A DNA stretch of 64,000 bases. Source: Fusobacterium necrogenes (GTDB taxonomy: Bacteria > Fusobacteriota > Fusobacteriia > Fusobacteriales > Fusobacteriaceae). The translations under genes and the position numbers were made by a program. This document shows positions 30,278 through 55,554 of this stretch, one piece after another (position 1 is the first letter of the stretch; the number at the start of each line of letters is the position of its first letter). Location: contig NZ_UGGU01000003.1 of assembly GCF_900450765.1 (NCBI RefSeq), positions 372,001 to 436,000 on the forward strand, in the 5' to 3' direction. The notes under the pieces are model-generated. The model saw only the letters and a list, made by a program, of their open reading frames with translations, did no database searches and was not told the DNA's origin.

Positions 30278-31165
30278 TTAGATTTCATAATTAAAGAATT
30301 TTTGATTAAGATAATTTTTTAAATCATTTCTAAGTAAATTTAATTCTTTTAAATACTCTTGAGTTGAAGGTTTAGGATATCTATCATTTACAAATCTACC
30401 TAAATTTTTCATTCCCCACCAATTTGCCATGTCATCATCAAAAACTTTATAAGCTTTCATATAATTATCCCATTTTTTATCTTCTATTCCTACTCCATCT
30501 CCAATGAACCCTCTTCCTCCACCTAAATATCCACAATTCATTATAGTAAAAATAGATTTTCCATTAAGTAGTCCTATATGTCCATCAGAATTAAAGTCGT
30601 ATGCAAATTTTTTTCCAAAAATTCTTTCCTGATATCCCTTTACTATAGAAGTAGCACTATCGTGCCAGTTAGGGTAAGCAAATATTATATAATCGGCTTT
30701 TGTAATAAAATTTTGTTCAATGATTACATCTTCAGGAGTAGCTCCTACCCCATCTTTTTGAGAATAAAACTCATCGGGATGTAAAATAGGGTTAAAATTC
30801 ATTTTATATAAATCTCTAATCTCTACCTCTATACCATTTTCTTCAAAATATTTCATAGAGGTATATACCATATCAAAAAGTATAGAGTTATCTCTATTAT
30901 CTCCTACTACAAAGAGAGCTTTTTTCTTATTAGAGTTTGTAAATCCATGAGGTATGTATTTTGAAACATAAGAAGCTGGAACTACTGAAGCAGATGTTAT
31001 TCCGTCTAATTTTTCTCTCTCTTTTTCTGAAAGAGTAGAACTATAATTATTAGAATTAATTATTTTAATTTCTACTTTCTCTTCTTTATTTATATAGTTG
31101 TAAAGTCCAATTACCCCTAAACCTAAAAATCCCATTAAAATTAAACTTTTTAGTTGACTATTCAT
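30278..31165 (-). CDS. Membrane-anchored NAD(P)H oxidoreductase, flavodoxin-like fold (MdaB/NQO1 type)
   Basis: A 295-residue protein. Residues 7-23 form a membrane anchor or uncleaved signal. Residues 30-75 are a polar segment containing 'LDGITSASVV', which resembles the D-x-I-S-G-A-T motif of FMN-binding domains. The rest (from 'KKALFVVGDNRDNSILF') is a flavodoxin-like NAD(P)H quinone oxidoreductase: 'MNFNPILHPDEFYSQ', 'ADYIIFAYPNWHDSATSIVKGYQERIF' (its core is ADYIIFAYPNWH) and 'NCGYLGGG'. It probably reduces quinone-like substrates or flavins on the outer face. It lies upstream of YbaN on the same strand; the metal/heme context suggests a redox role, but no substrate can be named. Confidence 0.75.
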   Translation of the reverse strand: MNSQLKSLILMGFLGLGVIGLYNYINKEEKVEIKIINSNNYSSTLSEKEREKLDGITSASVVPASYVSKYIPHGFTNSNKKKALFVVGDNRDNSILFDMVYTSMKYFEENGIEVEIRDLYKMNFNPILHPDEFYSQKDGVGATPEDVIIEQNFITKADYIIFAYPNWHDSATSIVKGYQERIFGKKFAYDFNSDGHIGLLNGKSIFTIMNCGYLGGGRGFIGDGVGIEDKKWDNYMKAYKVFDDDMANWWGMKNLGRFVNDRYPKPSTQEYLKELNLLRNDLKNYLNQKFFNYEI

Positions 31166-34838: not shown

Positions 34839-34893
34839 ACAAGGAGTGACTTCTGTTTTTTTACAGGAATCAATCCTTGTTATTTTTATTATT
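34839..34893. terminator. Bidirectional terminator between GT9 and DUF2147 genes
   Basis: ACAAGGA...TTCTG (from 34839) pairs with CAGGAA...TCCTTGT (to 34880), then T-rich sequence. The 3' arm overlaps the last codons of the DUF2147 gene, whose stop is at 34870-34872. Confidence 0.75.
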
Positions 34894-35364
34894 AGAGTAA
34901 TCTATATATCTCTCTAAATTAACTTTTTTTATTTTTAACGAATGAGATAATATTCCAAATTTATCAATACTGCCTTTTAGTTTTAAGGTATTAGTATTTA
35001 AAGTAGTTATGGAACCATAATAGAATTTTCCATTCCAAGAATCGTATATCCAACCTTTGACTAGCTGATTTTTTTCATTTTTAACTAATCCACCAACAAC
35101 TTGTAAATTTAGAACTTTTCTATTTCGAAGAAGTGGACTTGGATTATTTCTATCAATTTGCTCCTTGCCTGCCATTTTATCTCCAATAGGATACTTAGAA
35201 TCTTTTAGCCAACGTATATAACCAACATATTCATTTTCTTTTTTCTGAATTTCTACAATAACTTTTTGATTTGGAAGAAGCCAATATCCTATATAAGGAT
35301 CAGGTAATTCTTTACTAAATAAAGTAAAAGTAATTAAGATAAATAAAATTATAATTTTGTTCAT
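34870..35364 (-). CDS. DUF2147 exported protein
   Basis: A 164-residue secreted or periplasmic protein with a signal peptide ('IIILFILITFTLFSKE'). The DUF2147 features are 'DPYIGYWLLPNQKVIVEIQKKENEYVGYIRW', 'KVLNLQVVGGL', and 'VKGWIYDSWNGKFYYGSI' (a lipocalin-like beta fold; quoted pieces are DPYIGYWLLPNQ and KGWIYDSWNGK in essence). Function is not established. It starts 6 nt after the isoprenoid-synthase-like gene with no clear Shine-Dalgarno, so its translation is probably coupled to that gene. Confidence 0.8.
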   Translation of the reverse strand: MNKIIILFILITFTLFSKELPDPYIGYWLLPNQKVIVEIQKKENEYVGYIRWLKDSKYPIGDKMAGKEQIDRNNPSPLLRNRKVLNLQVVGGLVKNEKNQLVKGWIYDSWNGKFYYGSITTLNTNTLKLKGSIDKFGILSHSLKIKKVNLERYIDYSNNKNNKD

Positions 35365-35370
35365 AGAATA

Positions 35371-36306
35371 TCACACAATATAATGTATATAATTTTCTAA
35401 ACCTCTTAAAATAAATAATTTTTTTAAAATGAATTTAACTTCTTTTAAATTGATTGGAAATCCTGCATTTTGTAGTTTAGAAAAACCAGAATAGGCTGTA
35501 TTTATAGTATGTGTAAGATAGTTTGCAGTGAAATATGGATCGATGCTTTTAAAATCGATTTGAGATTCAGTTACTTTAAAAATTTCAGAATACTTGGCAA
35601 TGGCAAGATTTATATTGTTATTTTGGAAATCTTCTTCCATATCAAAAAAATCATCAAGTGCTTGTAAACTCATTCCTATAATAAATAGTCCATCACTAAA
35701 TTCGGATATTTTTAAATTGTTTTCTATTATTTTGGGGATAGTTAAACTTATTTCTAGTAATTTTCCTCCAATTTGTTTATGAACATTTTCAAGGATAAAA
35801 TTAGATGAAGGATATTTATTATATATTTCTCTTTTTCTAATACTTTCTCCTTTCGCAATTGAATAAATCTCTTCTAAAAGAATAGTATTAATTTTTTTAT
35901 TATTACAATTTAATTTTAAAATTTCTTTAGTCAGAAGTTCTTGTGTAATAAGAGAAATAAAACTATTTTCTACTAATGGATTATTAAGAGAGTTTATAAA
36001 AATATTCCCTTTTTTTTCATCATCTAGAATATTATCAATAGAAGTTACTATTTGTCTTAAGAACATAATTATTTTTCCATAAGAAATAACTCTAGACTTA
36101 GGAATATTACTTTCATTTATAAGAGATAACATAAGAATAGTAAAAAAATTTTTTTTAAATAAACTAATAAAATTTGTATCGTAGTAATTCAAGGTAAGTT
36201 CTGTATAAAAACTATAATTTTTGAAATCTTCGATGACAGTTTTTTGGCACTCTTTCATAATATCAGAAGCTTGAAGAAATTTTTTAAATAATAATTTACT
36301 GGACAT
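35371..36306 (-). CDS. Divergent class I isoprenoid-synthase-like protein
   Basis: A 311-residue all-helical protein. It keeps both Asp-rich metal motifs of trans-prenyl synthases: a first one at 'IDNILDDEKKG' (Asp91-Glu97) and a second at 'GMSLQALDDFFDMEEDF' (Asp218, Asp219, Asp222), which matches the G-x-x-[FL]-Q-x-x-D-D-x-x-D pattern. The middle 'IAKGESIRKREI' and 'HKQIGGKL' correspond to the region that holds the KT motif, here KQ. The paired Arg after the first motif is replaced by KK. It is clearly outside the housekeeping IspA/heptaprenyl group and could be a divergent prenyl synthase or a terpene-synthase-like enzyme. It is co-transcribed with a DUF2147 gene. Confidence 0.7.
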   Translation of the reverse strand: MSSKLLFKKFLQASDIMKECQKTVIEDFKNYSFYTELTLNYYDTNFISLFKKNFFTILMLSLINESNIPKSRVISYGKIIMFLRQIVTSIDNILDDEKKGNIFINSLNNPLVENSFISLITQELLTKEILKLNCNNKKINTILLEEIYSIAKGESIRKREIYNKYPSSNFILENVHKQIGGKLLEISLTIPKIIENNLKISEFSDGLFIIGMSLQALDDFFDMEEDFQNNNINLAIAKYSEIFKVTESQIDFKSIDPYFTANYLTHTINTAYSGFSKLQNAGFPINLKEVKFILKKLFILRGLENYIHYIV

Positions 36307-36647
36307 TTTTCCTCCTAAGTTATAATTAATATATAATTAATTATAGTATTAAAAAGTTAAAATTAATATAAAAAAATAAAATTGACAAAATTTCAACTAT
36401 TTGCTGATGAAATAAGATTTAGGTGATTTTATATATAAGTTTATTTTAAGAGAAGATAGAATAATAATAAACTTGATAGGAAATAACTTAGATAGTTATT
36501 TTATAATTATTTAGATAAAAGAAAAATAGAAATTTTTTTAAATATTATTAAATCAGGAGAAAATTATTTTGAAATTATATTAACGAAAATCTTTTAAATT
36601 ATTTAAATTTTTATCTTATAAATGCTAAAATATATAAGAGGTGAAAA
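36307..36647. other. Divergent intergenic region
   Basis: 341 nt, extremely AT-rich, between the isoprenoid-synthase-like gene (-) and the response regulator (+). It holds a perfect 25-nt palindrome (36321-36345, listed separately), a small inverted repeat AATAACT-TAGAT-AGTTATT (36482-36500, 7 bp) and a TTGACA at 36384 without a convincing -10. No coding sequence is apparent. Confidence 0.5.
36321..36345. repeat. Perfect 10-bp palindrome upstream of the isoprenoid-synthase-like gene
   Basis: TATAATTAAT-ATATA-ATTAATTATA: two perfect 10-bp arms around 5 nt, 15 nt before the start of the - strand gene. It also contains TATAAT on both strands. It may be an operator, with the caveat that AT-rich DNA makes such repeats easier to find. 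Confidence 0.5.
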
Positions 36648-37346
36648 ATGAAAAAAATTTTAATTATAGAAGATGATTTGAGAATAAGAAGAATTTTACA
36701 ACTAGAATTAGAACATGAAGGATACTTAGTTAATTTAGCTAAAGATGGAAAAGAAGGCTTAGAAAAATTTAAATTAATGAGGTATGATCTGATTTTATTA
36801 GATTTAATGTTACCTGAAGTTTCAGGAGAGGAAGTTTGTAAAAAATTAAGAAAAAATTCTGATATACCTATAATAGTACTGACTGCAAAAGAAGATATTA
36901 AAAGTAAAGTTGAACTTTTAGATATGGGAGCTGATGATTATATAACAAAACCATTTAATATAGAGGAACTTTTTGCTAGAATGAGGGTTGCTTTAAGAAA
37001 TAAAAAAAATTATCAAGAGATTGGGAAGTTAAAGTATGAAGACTTAGTTTTAGATATTACTCGAAAAGAATTGGTTATAAATGAGGAAAAAATATCTTTG
37101 ACTAAGACAGAATATAGGTTGTTAGAATTATTTATTTTAAATAAAGAATTAATTGTATCAAGAGAAAGAATTATAACTGAAATATGGGGTTATGATTTTG
37201 ATGGAGAAGAGAAAATAGTAGATGTATATTTAAATTTTTTAAGAAAAAAAATAGAAACTCAGGAGAAAAAATATATACAAAATATTAGAGGATTTGGGTA
37301 TATGTTAAAGCTTAAAAGAGGAGATTCTTATGAAAAAGATATCTAA
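36648..37346 (+). CDS. OmpR-family response regulator
   Basis: A 232-residue two-component regulator. The receiver domain (1-115) has Asp9-Asp10, the phospho-acceptor Asp52 in 'DLILLDLMLPE', Thr in 'IIVLTAKED' and Lys in 'YITKPF'. The C-terminal winged helix (about 125-225) is OmpR-like ('SLTKTEYRLLELFI', 'VDVYLNFLRKKIE', 'RGFGYML'). GAGGTG precedes the ATG. It overlaps the kinase gene by 17 nt. The target genes are not evident; the adjacent divergent pair is one candidate. Confidence 0.93.
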   Translation: MKKILIIEDDLRIRRILQLELEHEGYLVNLAKDGKEGLEKFKLMRYDLILLDLMLPEVSGEEVCKKLRKNSDIPIIVLTAKEDIKSKVELLDMGADDYITKPFNIEELFARMRVALRNKKNYQEIGKLKYEDLVLDITRKELVINEEKISLTKTEYRLLELFILNKELIVSRERIITEIWGYDFDGEEKIVDVYLNFLRKKIETQEKKYIQNIRGFGYMLKLKRGDSYEKDI

Positions 37347-38691
37347 AATGCTTTTAAAAAGCTACATGATTTTAATTTTAATTTTTACTTGTTCAAGTGT
37401 AGTGATTTTTATAACTGTTGAAGCATATATAAAGAGAAGTTCTGCTGATGATTTATATGCTATCGATAGTTTTTTACAGTATGAAACAAAAGAGTTTAAG
37501 GAAAAGTTAGAAAGTGGTAGAAAAATAAATGATATAATTGATTCTGCTTTAGATGAAGCTCCTAAAATATTAGGAAGTTCTATTATTTTTAAATTAAATG
37601 GACAAATACTATCAAGAAGTTATTCGGAAAATGAGTTAAAACAAGTAGAGAATGAAGATTATTATGATATTGTGAAAGATTGTGGATATTATAATCTTCA
37701 ATATTTAAAAAGAAAAATAAATATAAAGGAATACCCTAATTTAGAAGTATATATTATAAAAAATTTAAAAGCAGAAAAAAGATTGATGTTAAATATTATT
37801 GGTTTATCTACATTAATTTTAATTTTTACAACTTTATTAGCTTATTTTATTTCAAAAAGATTTTATAATAGATTTACATTCTCTTTGAATGAACTTCAGA
37901 GATTAACTAATGAGATAAATTTAGAAAGTTTAGATACAAATTTAAAAAAAAATGAATATTATGAATTTCAACAAGTTATTATTTCGTATAATAATATGTT
38001 AAAAAGATTAAAAGAACAGGCAAAAAAGCAGATAGATTTTGTAAATAATGCTTCCCATGAGTTAAAAACTCCAATTTTTGTAATAAGTGGATATGTAGAT
38101 CTGATAAAAAGATGGGGATATTTAAATAAAGAGTTGGTAGAGGAAAGTTTAGATGCAATAGGAGAAGAAAGTAAAAATATGGCTAATTTAGTAAATAAAT
38201 TATTATTTTTAGCTAAAGATGAAGAAAATTATATAAATGAAGAAGAGATTAATTTAAAAGATTTAATAATAAATATAGTTAAAGATTTAAAAATTTTGTA
38301 TCCACTTCAAGAGATAGAAATAATTATTTCTGAAGAGCACACTATAATTTCAGATAATTTTTTACTAAAACAACTATTAATAAATTTAATAGAAAATGCT
38401 GTAAAATACGGAAATAAGAAAAAAGTAACAATTATTTTAAAAAAAGATAAAAATATCACAATTGAGATAATTGACAGAGGAAAGGGAATTAATAAAGAAA
38501 ATTTAAATAAAATTTTTGAAAAGTTTTATAGAGAGGATAAGGCAAGGAGTAGAAGTGAAGGTAGTTATGGTCTAGGGCTTGCAATTGTAAAAAAAATAGC
38601 GGATATGTTAGATATTTATGTAGAAGTTGAAAGTGAATTAAAAAGAGGAACGACTGCAAGGGCTATTTTTAAAAATAGTATAAGTTTATAA
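37330..38691 (+). CDS. Membrane sensor histidine kinase
   Basis: A 453-residue kinase with two membrane segments (about residues 10-32 and 150-172) enclosing a ~115-residue sensor domain outside the membrane. A HAMP-like region follows. The phosphorylated His is in 'VNNASHELKTPIFVISGY', the N box is 'LINLIENAVKYGN', G1 is 'IIDRGKGI', the F box 'FEKFYRED', and G2 'GSYGLGLAIVKKIAD'. The start overlaps the response regulator with AGAGGAG upstream. It should phosphorylate that regulator; the stimulus is unknown. The sensor domain has no motif I recognise. Confidence 0.93.
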   Translation: MKKISKMLLKSYMILILIFTCSSVVIFITVEAYIKRSSADDLYAIDSFLQYETKEFKEKLESGRKINDIIDSALDEAPKILGSSIIFKLNGQILSRSYSENELKQVENEDYYDIVKDCGYYNLQYLKRKINIKEYPNLEVYIIKNLKAEKRLMLNIIGLSTLILIFTTLLAYFISKRFYNRFTFSLNELQRLTNEINLESLDTNLKKNEYYEFQQVIISYNNMLKRLKEQAKKQIDFVNNASHELKTPIFVISGYVDLIKRWGYLNKELVEESLDAIGEESKNMANLVNKLLFLAKDEENYINEEEINLKDLIINIVKDLKILYPLQEIEIIISEEHTIISDNFLLKQLLINLIENAVKYGNKKKVTIILKKDKNITIEIIDRGKGINKENLNKIFEKFYREDKARSRSEGSYGLGLAIVKKIADMLDIYVEVESELKRGTTARAIFKNSISL

Positions 38692-53252: not shown

Positions 53253-54461
53253 ATGTTATCATCTAAATTTATAAAGTTTATGAGAGCTTTAAAAATGGAA
53301 AATAATGAAAAGCTTTCTACTATATTGGAGTTAGGAAGAATTGGAGTTCGTATATCTGAGGAATATTCAACTAGAATTGATTTGTTAGAGATAGACCAAT
53401 GCTTATATCTTTCAGATTTTCAAACTCCACAATTAGAAAAATCCGAAAAACACCTTTTAAACTTAGTAAAGACTAAAGATCCGCTTTTTTCTTTGATGGA
53501 ATATTATGATAACTATCCATATTCATATTCTGATATTAGTTGCATATTTAAAGGATGTTTGAAAACTGGTGTAGAAATATCTATAAAAGGTATAAATCCG
53601 ACTTCTAAAAATAATTATTTCAAAAATTTGCATAAATTAAAAACATCACTAAAACATAGAAAAATTTTTATGCCTTGGTTAAATCAAAAGTATAAAGTGA
53701 ATGATATTTTAGATAAACTAGATGAATATAGTCAAGAAAAATTTAGCTTGAGAAATGAGATAAGGTTTACAAAAATAATGCAAGAAAGTTTAAATATTTA
53801 CACGGATGTAGAATTCTTAAAAAGGATGAGAGTTCCCAAAATATATTCCTACTTATCATCAGATAATTTAATAGTTACAGAGTATATTTATGGTACATAT
53901 TTTTACGAACTATTAGAGTATAAGAGATTACTATATAAAGATGTTTTAGATTTAATAAAGATACAATTATTTTTTATCTTTAAAATAGGAATATTTCATA
54001 ATAACTTACATTCTGGAAATTTGATATTAAGTGACGAGGGAAAGATATATTTTTTAGATTGTAATACAATATCAATTTTAAAACTGGAATTAAGGAGTGT
54101 TTTATATAATATTTTGAGATGTTTAGTTGAAAAAAAGTATAAGAGTGCAGTATTTTTCTTAAATTCTATTTCAAATCAAAAGTTATCAGAGGAAGAACTA
54201 GGAAAATTAGTCAAGAATATAGAGTTTATACGGTTATCAGAGATTTCAAAAAAAGTCCCTGTAATAGCAAAAGTTATGCTTGCTTTTAAAGAGGCTATAA
54301 ATATTGGAATGAACTTTGATGAAGAGATTTATCCAATTTTTAAATCCTTCATATATTTGGAGAAATTAGCTCAAAAAACAAAGAATAAAAATACTATATT
54401 TAGTGATGACTTAAGTCAAATATTAGAAGAGTTAGAAGTTATAATTAATCAGAGTAATTAA
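53253..54461 (+). CDS. Degenerate ABC1/UbiB/AarF-family protein, probable pseudokinase
   Basis: A 402-residue protein aligned to the ABC1 family by 'EEYSTRIDLLEI' (37-48), Lys112 in 'VEISIKGINP', 'EKFSLRNEIRF' (162-172) and the catalytic-loop region 'FHNNLHSGNLILSDEGKIYF' (248-267). Several key residues are altered: the KxGQ motif before STR is gone (RISEEYSTR), the usual HADPHPGN reads HNNLHSGN, so the catalytic Asp is Asn251 or lacking, and DFG reads DCN (269-271). It may bind nucleotide without kinase activity. No ubiquinone pathway is evident nearby. It is a single-gene unit with its own promoter; no transmembrane pair is evident at the C-terminus. Confidence 0.7.
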   Translation: MLSSKFIKFMRALKMENNEKLSTILELGRIGVRISEEYSTRIDLLEIDQCLYLSDFQTPQLEKSEKHLLNLVKTKDPLFSLMEYYDNYPYSYSDISCIFKGCLKTGVEISIKGINPTSKNNYFKNLHKLKTSLKHRKIFMPWLNQKYKVNDILDKLDEYSQEKFSLRNEIRFTKIMQESLNIYTDVEFLKRMRVPKIYSYLSSDNLIVTEYIYGTYFYELLEYKRLLYKDVLDLIKIQLFFIFKIGIFHNNLHSGNLILSDEGKIYFLDCNTISILKLELRSVLYNILRCLVEKKYKSAVFFLNSISNQKLSEEELGKLVKNIEFIRLSEISKKVPVIAKVMLAFKEAINIGMNFDEEIYPIFKSFIYLEKLAQKTKNKNTIFSDDLSQILEELEVIINQSN

Positions 54462-54490
54462 TTGACTTAGAGAGTTTTTCATATTAAAAT
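54462..54490 (+). promoter_or_regulatory. Promoter of the potD-dnaN unit
   Basis: TTGACT (54462-54467) and TAAAAT (54485-54490), 17 nt apart, 36 nt before the potD start and just past the upstream stop. Confidence 0.65.
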
Positions 54491-54525
54491 ATAATATATT
54501 GGAATTATTTTTAGGAGGTTAGTAG

Positions 54526-55554
54526 ATGAAAAAAATATTGGTAGCAATTACTTTAGCTATGGCTGTTATAAGTTGTAGAGGAAAGGAAGAGAATAAAAAT
54601 ATATTATATGTATATGGTTGGGCTAATACTATTCCACAAACCATATATGATGATTTTGAAAGAGAAACTGGAATAAAAGTGGTGGAAGATATTTATTCAT
54701 CTAATGAAGAAATGTTTACAAAATTAAAGGCTGGAGGAGATGGTTATGATATAGTTATGCCATCCGCAGATTATGTTGAAATAATGATGAAAGAGGGGAT
54801 GATTGAAAAATTAGATAAGACTAAGTTACCAAATTATAATAACCTTGATCCATTGGTGTTAGAAAAATTACATCATTTTGATCCTAAAAATGATTATGAA
54901 GTTCCATATTTAATTGGTGCTACAATTATAGCTGTAAATAAAAAATATGTTTCCGAGTATCCAAAAGATTATTCAATATATGAAATGAATAATTTGAGAG
55001 GAAGGATGACTTTACTTGATGATATGAGAGAAGTAATGACATCAGCTTTAGGAATGTTAGGATATCCACAGACAGTTAGTGATGAAAAGATAATAGCACA
55101 AGCAGCTGAATTGGTGAAGACTTGGAAAAGAAATATTGCAAAATTTGATTCCGAATCTTTTGGAAAAGGTTTTGCTAGTGGAGATTTTTGGGTGGTGCAA
55201 GGTTATCCTGATAATATTTTTAAAGAGCTAGATGAAAAGGATAGAGCAAATGTAGAGATGATAATTCCAGAAAAAGGTGGAACAGCTTATGTTGATTCAT
55301 TTGTTCTCTTACAAACAGCAGCTAATAAAGAGAATGCATATAAATTTTTAGAATATACTCTAAGAGCAGAAGTAGCAGCTAAGATAGCTGATGCTTTAGA
55401 AACTCCATCTGTAAATCTTCAAGCAAGAGAATTAATGAAAATAAAACCTTTATTTGAAATTTCTGATTTGAAAAATATTCAAGTATTAAGAGATATAAAT
55501 ACAACTTTAGATTTACAAAATAAGTATTGGCAGGAGATATTAATCGCTGAATAA
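54526..55554 (+). CDS. potD: Polyamine ABC transporter substrate-binding lipoprotein, orphan
   Basis: A 342-residue lipoprotein of the PotD/PotF family with lipobox 'MAVISC' (Cys17). The mature domain has 'ILYVYGWANTIPQTIYDDF', 'SNEEMFTKLKAGGDGYDIVMPSADYV', 'YEVPYLIGATIIAVNKKYV' and 'VQGYPDNIF'. Spermidine/putrescine is the expected ligand. No potA, potB or potC gene is near it, so it must work with a transporter encoded elsewhere or act alone. dnaN follows 13 nt after the stop and probably shares this promoter. Confidence 0.85.
   Translation: MKKILVAITLAMAVISCRGKEENKNILYVYGWANTIPQTIYDDFERETGIKVVEDIYSSNEEMFTKLKAGGDGYDIVMPSADYVEIMMKEGMIEKLDKTKLPNYNNLDPLVLEKLHHFDPKNDYEVPYLIGATIIAVNKKYVSEYPKDYSIYEMNNLRGRMTLLDDMREVMTSALGMLGYPQTVSDEKIIAQAAELVKTWKRNIAKFDSESFGKGFASGDFWVVQGYPDNIFKELDEKDRANVEMIIPEKGGTAYVDSFVLLQTAANKENAYKFLEYTLRAEVAAKIADALETPSVNLQARELMKIKPLFEISDLKNIQVLRDINTTLDLQNKYWQEILIAE

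Follow-up and report, generated by a model that had tools for sequence, protein, structure and literature searches.

A class I isoprenoid-synthase-fold enzyme and its DUF2147 lipocalin partner in Fusobacteriota: a candidate two-gene unit for a terpene-like product

In a 64,000-nucleotide stretch of the Fusobacterium necrogenes genome (contig NZ_UGGU01000003.1, positions 372,001 to 436,000; termed here the window), we found two adjacent genes that may form a unit for an isoprenoid-derived small molecule, in which a terpene-synthase-like enzyme would make the product and an exported lipocalin would handle it, a reading to which we give an even chance. The proposal starts from computed features, namely the fold of the enzyme, its retained metal motifs, its lost IPP-site residues, the lipocalin fold of the partner and the tight evolutionary linkage of the two genes. 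Its enzyme half is drawn from fold and motif loss, and its lipocalin half from fold and co-inheritance. The two genes and the ribosome-binding site are as follows.

35371..36306, (-) strand: class I isoprenoid-synthase-fold enzyme, putatively terpene-synthase-like, 311 aa (ORF, AF2 model, Foldseek, family of 35 loci)
36311..36316, (-) strand: AGGAGG ribosome-binding site of the enzyme gene (sequence)
34870..35364, (-) strand: probably exported DUF2147 protein of lipocalin fold, 164 aa (PF09917; HP1028/4INN by sequence and fold; N-terminal hydrophobic helix)

The enzyme ORF begins with ATG and is followed after 6 nt by the DUF2147 gene on the same strand, a pairing that the initial annotation had pointed out and that is confirmed here by a PF09917 score of 73.4 bits against a cut-off of 27. 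The host genome, 2.0 Mb in size and sharing a genus group with F. varium, encodes one bona fide PF00348 enzyme, the housekeeping IspA, and since this lone enzyme is encoded elsewhere the gene at 35371-36306 is an extra. The pair faces a divergent OmpR-type two-component system; the region holding the enzyme gene and this system (window 35500-38500) has ~21% G+C against 25-33% nearby. A two-component system also adjoins the enzyme gene at locus L035, yet the proteins are 46%/34% identical, and the system was rejected as a conserved partner because orthology is unsupported. A phage or defence gene was likewise ruled out, with no PADLOC match and a best PHROG match no better than E 0.04. The promoter palindrome noted earlier does exist, with 10-nt arms at 36321-36330 and 36336-36345 in a region of 14% G+C; arms of equal or greater length with a short spacer arose in 61 of 500 dinucleotide shuffles of that region, which is chance level, and the second arm is missing upstream of the enzyme gene of the closest homolog. 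These two results rule it out as an operator, and one half of it, TATAAT, may simply be the -10 box.

The enzyme lies as far from housekeeping prenyl synthases as had first been supposed. Its score against PF00348 (polyprenyl synthetase) is 11.9 bits where the cut-off is 27, phmmer returned no match to PDB sequences with the enzyme as query, and an NCBIfam search gave nothing near its cut-off. PF00348 matches at all in only three of 13 family members (best E 1.2e-4), and the family profile weakly matches prenyl synthases in the PDB (E 0.006) and IspA-type enzymes of Fusobacteriota (4e-6 to 9e-4). By sequence, no family library searched claims the enzyme, and the confident match to IspA or HepPPS that would speak for a housekeeping role was not found in these searches, which leaves the initial reading unrefuted. 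The AF2 model (pLDDT 92.6, pTM 0.90) finds its best Foldseek matches in the PDB among trans-prenyl diphosphate synthases, with probability 1.00, a top E of 8.4e-5, TM-scores of ~0.6 and 14% identity; as modeled, the enzyme is of the class I trans-prenyl diphosphate synthase fold, and TM-scores at this level would allow the active site to be laid out differently. The known enzymes of this fold (PF00348; M. luteus hexaprenyl diphosphate synthase 3AQB, T. maritima octaprenyl diphosphate synthase 1V4E and IspA) have, as it does, a pair of Asp-rich metal motifs in corresponding places and a Gln ahead of the second motif. It differs from them in its ~14% identity, its DNxxD first motif, its score below the Pfam cut-off and four replacements: Phe for the GGKRxR Arg, Arg for the IPP His, xK for RR and Ile-Gly for KT. 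Membership of the class IB enzymes (DUF2600, PF10776) was ruled out because PF10776 matched none of 13 members, nor anything in the window genome; the six plasmid records examined for the profile comparison held no DUF2600 sequence. The class IB large terpene synthases (BalTS/YtpB; motifs in PMC11234867) resemble the enzyme in motifs alone and with no PF10776 match, having a second motif DxxxDxxED and a first motif that contains DNxxD, both as in the enzyme, although their full first motif DYLDNLxD is not completely matched.

Residues of the catalytic region were placed by comparing 27 family members in HHalign with 29 IspA-type proteins of Fusobacteriota (global E 1.8e-6), which gives a register that is alignment-based rather than structural. 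The positions discussed below are listed here.

36016..36036, (-) strand: first Asp-rich metal motif D91-N-I-L-D95-D-E97 (D91, N92, D95 and E97 invariant, 27/27)
35641..35655, (-) strand: second Asp-rich metal motif D218-D-F-F-D222, then E225 and D226 (D218, D219, D222, E225 and D226 invariant, 27/27)
36142..36144, (-) strand: Phe55, replacing the IPP-binding Arg of GGKRxR (HHalign register; Phe 27/27)
36055..36057, (-) strand: Arg84, replacing the IPP-binding His of canonical enzymes (HHalign register; Arg 27/27)
35764..35772, (-) strand: I179-G180-G181 at the canonical KT position (HHalign; HMMER to 7my6 and 1v4e-type chains; 27/27)
35836..35838, (-) strand: family-specific invariant Arg157 (27/27)
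35404..35406, (-) strand: invariant Arg301 near the C-terminus, ~80 residues past the second metal motif (27/27)

Both Asp-rich metal motifs of chain-elongating trans-prenyl diphosphate synthases (DDx2-4D and DDxxD) are present, as the first reading of DNILDDE at 91-97 and DDFFD at 218-222 had it, the first in the variant form DNxxD, lacking the two-residue insertion seen in IspA, and the second as DDxxD (DDxxDxxED). The canonical His and KT of prenyl synthases serve in the IPP/allylic site. In the family the residues that bind IPP are gone, GGKRLRP aligning to FKKNFFT and IHSYSLVHDD to LRQIVTSTDN, which puts Phe55 where canonical enzymes have the GGKRxR Arg and Arg84 where they have the His that precedes the first motif. 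These are bigger departures than any in the initial annotation, which had named KK in place of the Arg pair and KQ in place of KT. The former stands in part, with canonical RRG mapping to xKG, where K99 alone is invariant (27/27) and the first position varies. The latter does not hold: KQ at 177-178 is unconserved and two residues out of register, and the KT of helix G maps to Ile179-Gly180 (IHAHKTGKL aligned to IHSGIGGKL), a register backed by the HMMER alignments to 7my6 and to octaprenyl diphosphate synthase chains. Judged by these residues, the diphosphate-ionising half of the active site is predicted to be kept and the IPP half to be lost. With the lysine of KT and the IPP-site residues of canonical enzymes lost, the enzyme most likely performs no prenyl-chain extension.

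We take R81 of the fungal GGPP synthase MliGGDPS to be the Arg of GGKRxR. Its replacement in MliGGDPS R81P abolished coupling and brought terpene synthase activity, and the authors related R81 to the binding of the IPP diphosphate (PMC7484799). Fungal and insect terpene synthases that resemble prenyl synthases (MliILTPS1-3, PMC7484799; LlTPS, PMC10962984) have, like the fusobacterial enzyme, lost IPP-contact residues including this Arg, and the insect LlTPS retains three of 15 (PMC10962984). An intact second Asp motif, which MliILTPS1 shares with the fusobacterial enzyme, is compatible with terpene synthase activity (PMC7484799). These eukaryotic enzymes are recent duplications still highly similar to their own prenyl synthases, whereas the fusobacterial family is ancient, barely detectable by PF00348, and known here from sequence and predicted fold. 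The combination that marks a prenyl-synthase-derived terpene synthase, with fold and metal motifs kept and IPP-contact residues lost, is found in the enzyme.

From this combination we infer catalysis along the following lines. In the cytosol the two Asp-rich Mg2+ sites would hold and ionise an allylic diphosphate, either GPP or FPP made by the IspA of the cell, and the enzyme would release a cyclised, eliminated or water-quenched terpene in the manner of the fungal and insect enzymes; the single housekeeping IspA of the window genome would be the source of this candidate substrate. The putative hydrophobic product would then cross the inner membrane and become the ligand of the exported DUF2147 lipocalin, which could bind, carry or sense it in the periplasm or outside. 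Near most copies we saw no P450 gene and no other gene dedicated to terpene tailoring. Classical class I terpene synthases carry DDxxD/E plus an NSE/DTE triad, and the second motif of our enzyme, DDxxDxxED in place of that triad, counts against the terpene reading. Gly180 and the invariant Arg301 lie at spacings that may roughly correspond to those of the effector triad and the downstream RY pair.

By sequence (E 1.6e-7) the partner protein matches the Helicobacter pylori protein HP1028, whose deposition (4INN) assigns it to the lipocalin family, and the AF2 model of the partner (pLDDT 93.3) has eight strands and the lipocalin fold. A fold search with this model returned 4INN first (E 4e-8, with 24% identity in the structural alignment), then mainly crustacyanins, odorant-binding and fatty-acid-binding proteins. 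The partner has an N-terminal hydrophobic helix and, by inspection, no lipobox, and so is likely to be exported into the periplasm or further out.

The pairing proved conserved across genomes and phylogenetically tight, and the enzyme is no orphan, contrary to what had been assumed: 35 loci in Fusobacteriota were examined, representing 12 genera in all, drawn from the family of the window genome and, with one genus (g25), from another family in the order. Within the fetched stretches (up to ~18 kb), 29 of the 35 enzyme loci have a DUF2147 gene. At 24 loci, in 10 of the 12 genera, it lies close downstream on the same strand (with one intervening gene in L037), often overlapping the enzyme gene by 4-80 nt, and in L036 it is convergent at a distance of 11 nt. 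The flanks vary among genera, which makes the pair itself the conserved unit, and in genus g4 the same site occurs with the DUF2147 gene (L075-L078) and without it (L073-L074). A branch with support 100/99 divides the associated DUF2147 proteins from the free-standing ones, in a tree that carries a long-branch warning for a few rows; the convergent DUF2147 of L030 falls in the free-standing clade and was rejected as a partner. The DUF2147 tree follows the enzyme tree (Mantel r 0.72, 0/5000). Among 37 genomes of the same family, 13 have both genes, four the enzyme only, none the associated DUF2147 only and 20 neither (Fisher p 6.7e-7, relatedness uncorrected). The associated DUF2147 is thus absent in four of 17 enzyme-positive genomes, two of which have broken enzyme genes.

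Matches to the enzyme were obtained in 38 of 98 genomes, a count that includes a few weak cross-hits to IspA-type enzymes, the true number being ~34. Identity of full-length members to the window enzyme falls to 30%, and despite this most catalytic-region positions are invariant in all 27 aligned homologs. Non-synonymous divergence is well under synonymous in every pair measured, the sole close pair for the window gene being with the broken copy L026, and this pattern indicates that the family is under purifying selection. Six copies (L025, L026, L031, L034, L082 and L083) appear broken by stops or frame changes; patchy distribution and decay are as expected of an accessory function. No relatives were found in viral contigs, nor in plasmids outside F. 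varium, and a single-query scan of genome contigs gave Cetobacterium matches only; relatives outside Fusobacteriota may exist. One F. varium genome carries two enzyme copies and no DUF2147 gene, one on a mobilizable 89-kb plasmid (L033; AP017969.1, about 54300-55175) and one on the chromosome (L032) beside prophage-looking genes that appear antirepressor- and recombinase-like by eye. These copies suggest that the enzyme gene is able to move alone.

In one alternative the enzyme would be a divergent trans-prenyl diphosphate synthase of the medium- or long-chain type in which coupling of IPP persists: Arg84 and Arg157 would bind diphosphate in a rebuilt IPP site, and the product would be a special envelope polyprenyl chain. 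We regard this as unlikely: the best structural matches are long-chain prenyl diphosphate synthases, the family profile aligns to the T. maritima octaprenyl diphosphate synthase, and the two Asp-rich motifs are intact and accompanied by new conserved arginines, yet the IPP/allylic-site Arg, His and KT are replaced in 27/27 and the window genome has no UbiA that could use a chain. A prenyltransferase of the same fold acting on a non-IPP acceptor, be it a sugar, a peptide or an aromatic compound, and passing its prenylated product to the lipocalin, would fit the missing IPP-site residues and the kept ionisation site. This alternative has a precedent in terpene cyclases that are capable of aromatic prenyl transfer (PMC7414894), and the methyltransferase and flavodoxin-fold reductase partners found in two genera would fit a decorated acceptor; in most genera, however, no acceptor-making gene accompanies the pair, and we consider it quite improbable. 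Less probable still is a protein that binds prenyl diphosphates without catalysis, or hydrolyses them, and that either tunes the levels of isoprenoid carriers or, with the exported lipocalin, senses the state of the envelope. The position of the window pair opposite the two-component system and the tolerance of broken copies would suit such a binder, but the invariance of the metal-site residues (27/27) speaks for catalysis, and the low identity of the system beside L035 lends no support to a conserved regulatory link. A side-chain synthase for a respiratory quinone, for which the fold match to quinone-tail synthases speaks, is very improbable because the window genome, like most carriers, lacks a UbiA-family prenyltransferase, and several of the UbiA-bearing genomes have a second bona fide PF00348 enzyme close to UbiA.

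That said, a terpene-like or modified-prenyl product unit, as the initial annotation put it, is still the best reading, strengthened by the lipocalin fold that DUF2147 proved to have and by the loss of the IPP-site residues, with the product itself being the conjectural part. More tentatively, and with a likelihood clearly short of even, the pair may represent a bacterial terpene synthase family that arose from prenyl diphosphate synthases via IPP-site loss and is coupled to a dedicated exported lipocalin that carries or presents the terpene, a counterpart of pheromone synthase and odorant-binding protein. If so, Fusobacteria such as F. varium, Cetobacterium and relatives would make an undescribed isoprenoid product, formed in the cell and handled outside, and the family would show cleanly, in bacteria, the change from prenyl synthase to terpene synthase. 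The pair would also assign a candidate ligand class to a DUF2147 subfamily. In titles, abstracts and term counts we found no report on Fusobacterium and terpene synthase, only incidental-looking papers, and no paper in the searched literature had both "DUF2147" and "polyprenyl synthetase".

Several neighbours of the pair differ among genera. Genera g13 and g7 have a four-gene version (L027, L028, L068, L070-L072, L083 and L037) in which genes for a SAM methyltransferase and for a flavodoxin-fold reductase resembling AzoR join the pair, with differing gene order and flanks. In the window itself, ~4 kb from the pair, the gene at 30278-31165 encodes a Flavodoxin_2 protein that begins with a hydrophobic N-terminal segment and whose Pfam family matches that of the reductase partner in the other genera. 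In genus g4, a gene for an OLD/GajA-like nuclease, a type known from phage defence, directly follows the pair (L076 9643-10947; equivalents in L025, L073-L075, L077, L078 and L084). Genus g2 has a gene for a 140-aa exported-looking protein just upstream of the enzyme gene (L022 2566-2988; L023 8201-8623), with no Pfam match and a C-terminal GAT motif that recalls FMN-binding domains. In a genome of the same genus as the window, a PAP2 phosphatase gene (L026 8710-9342) lies between the broken enzyme copy and the two-component system.
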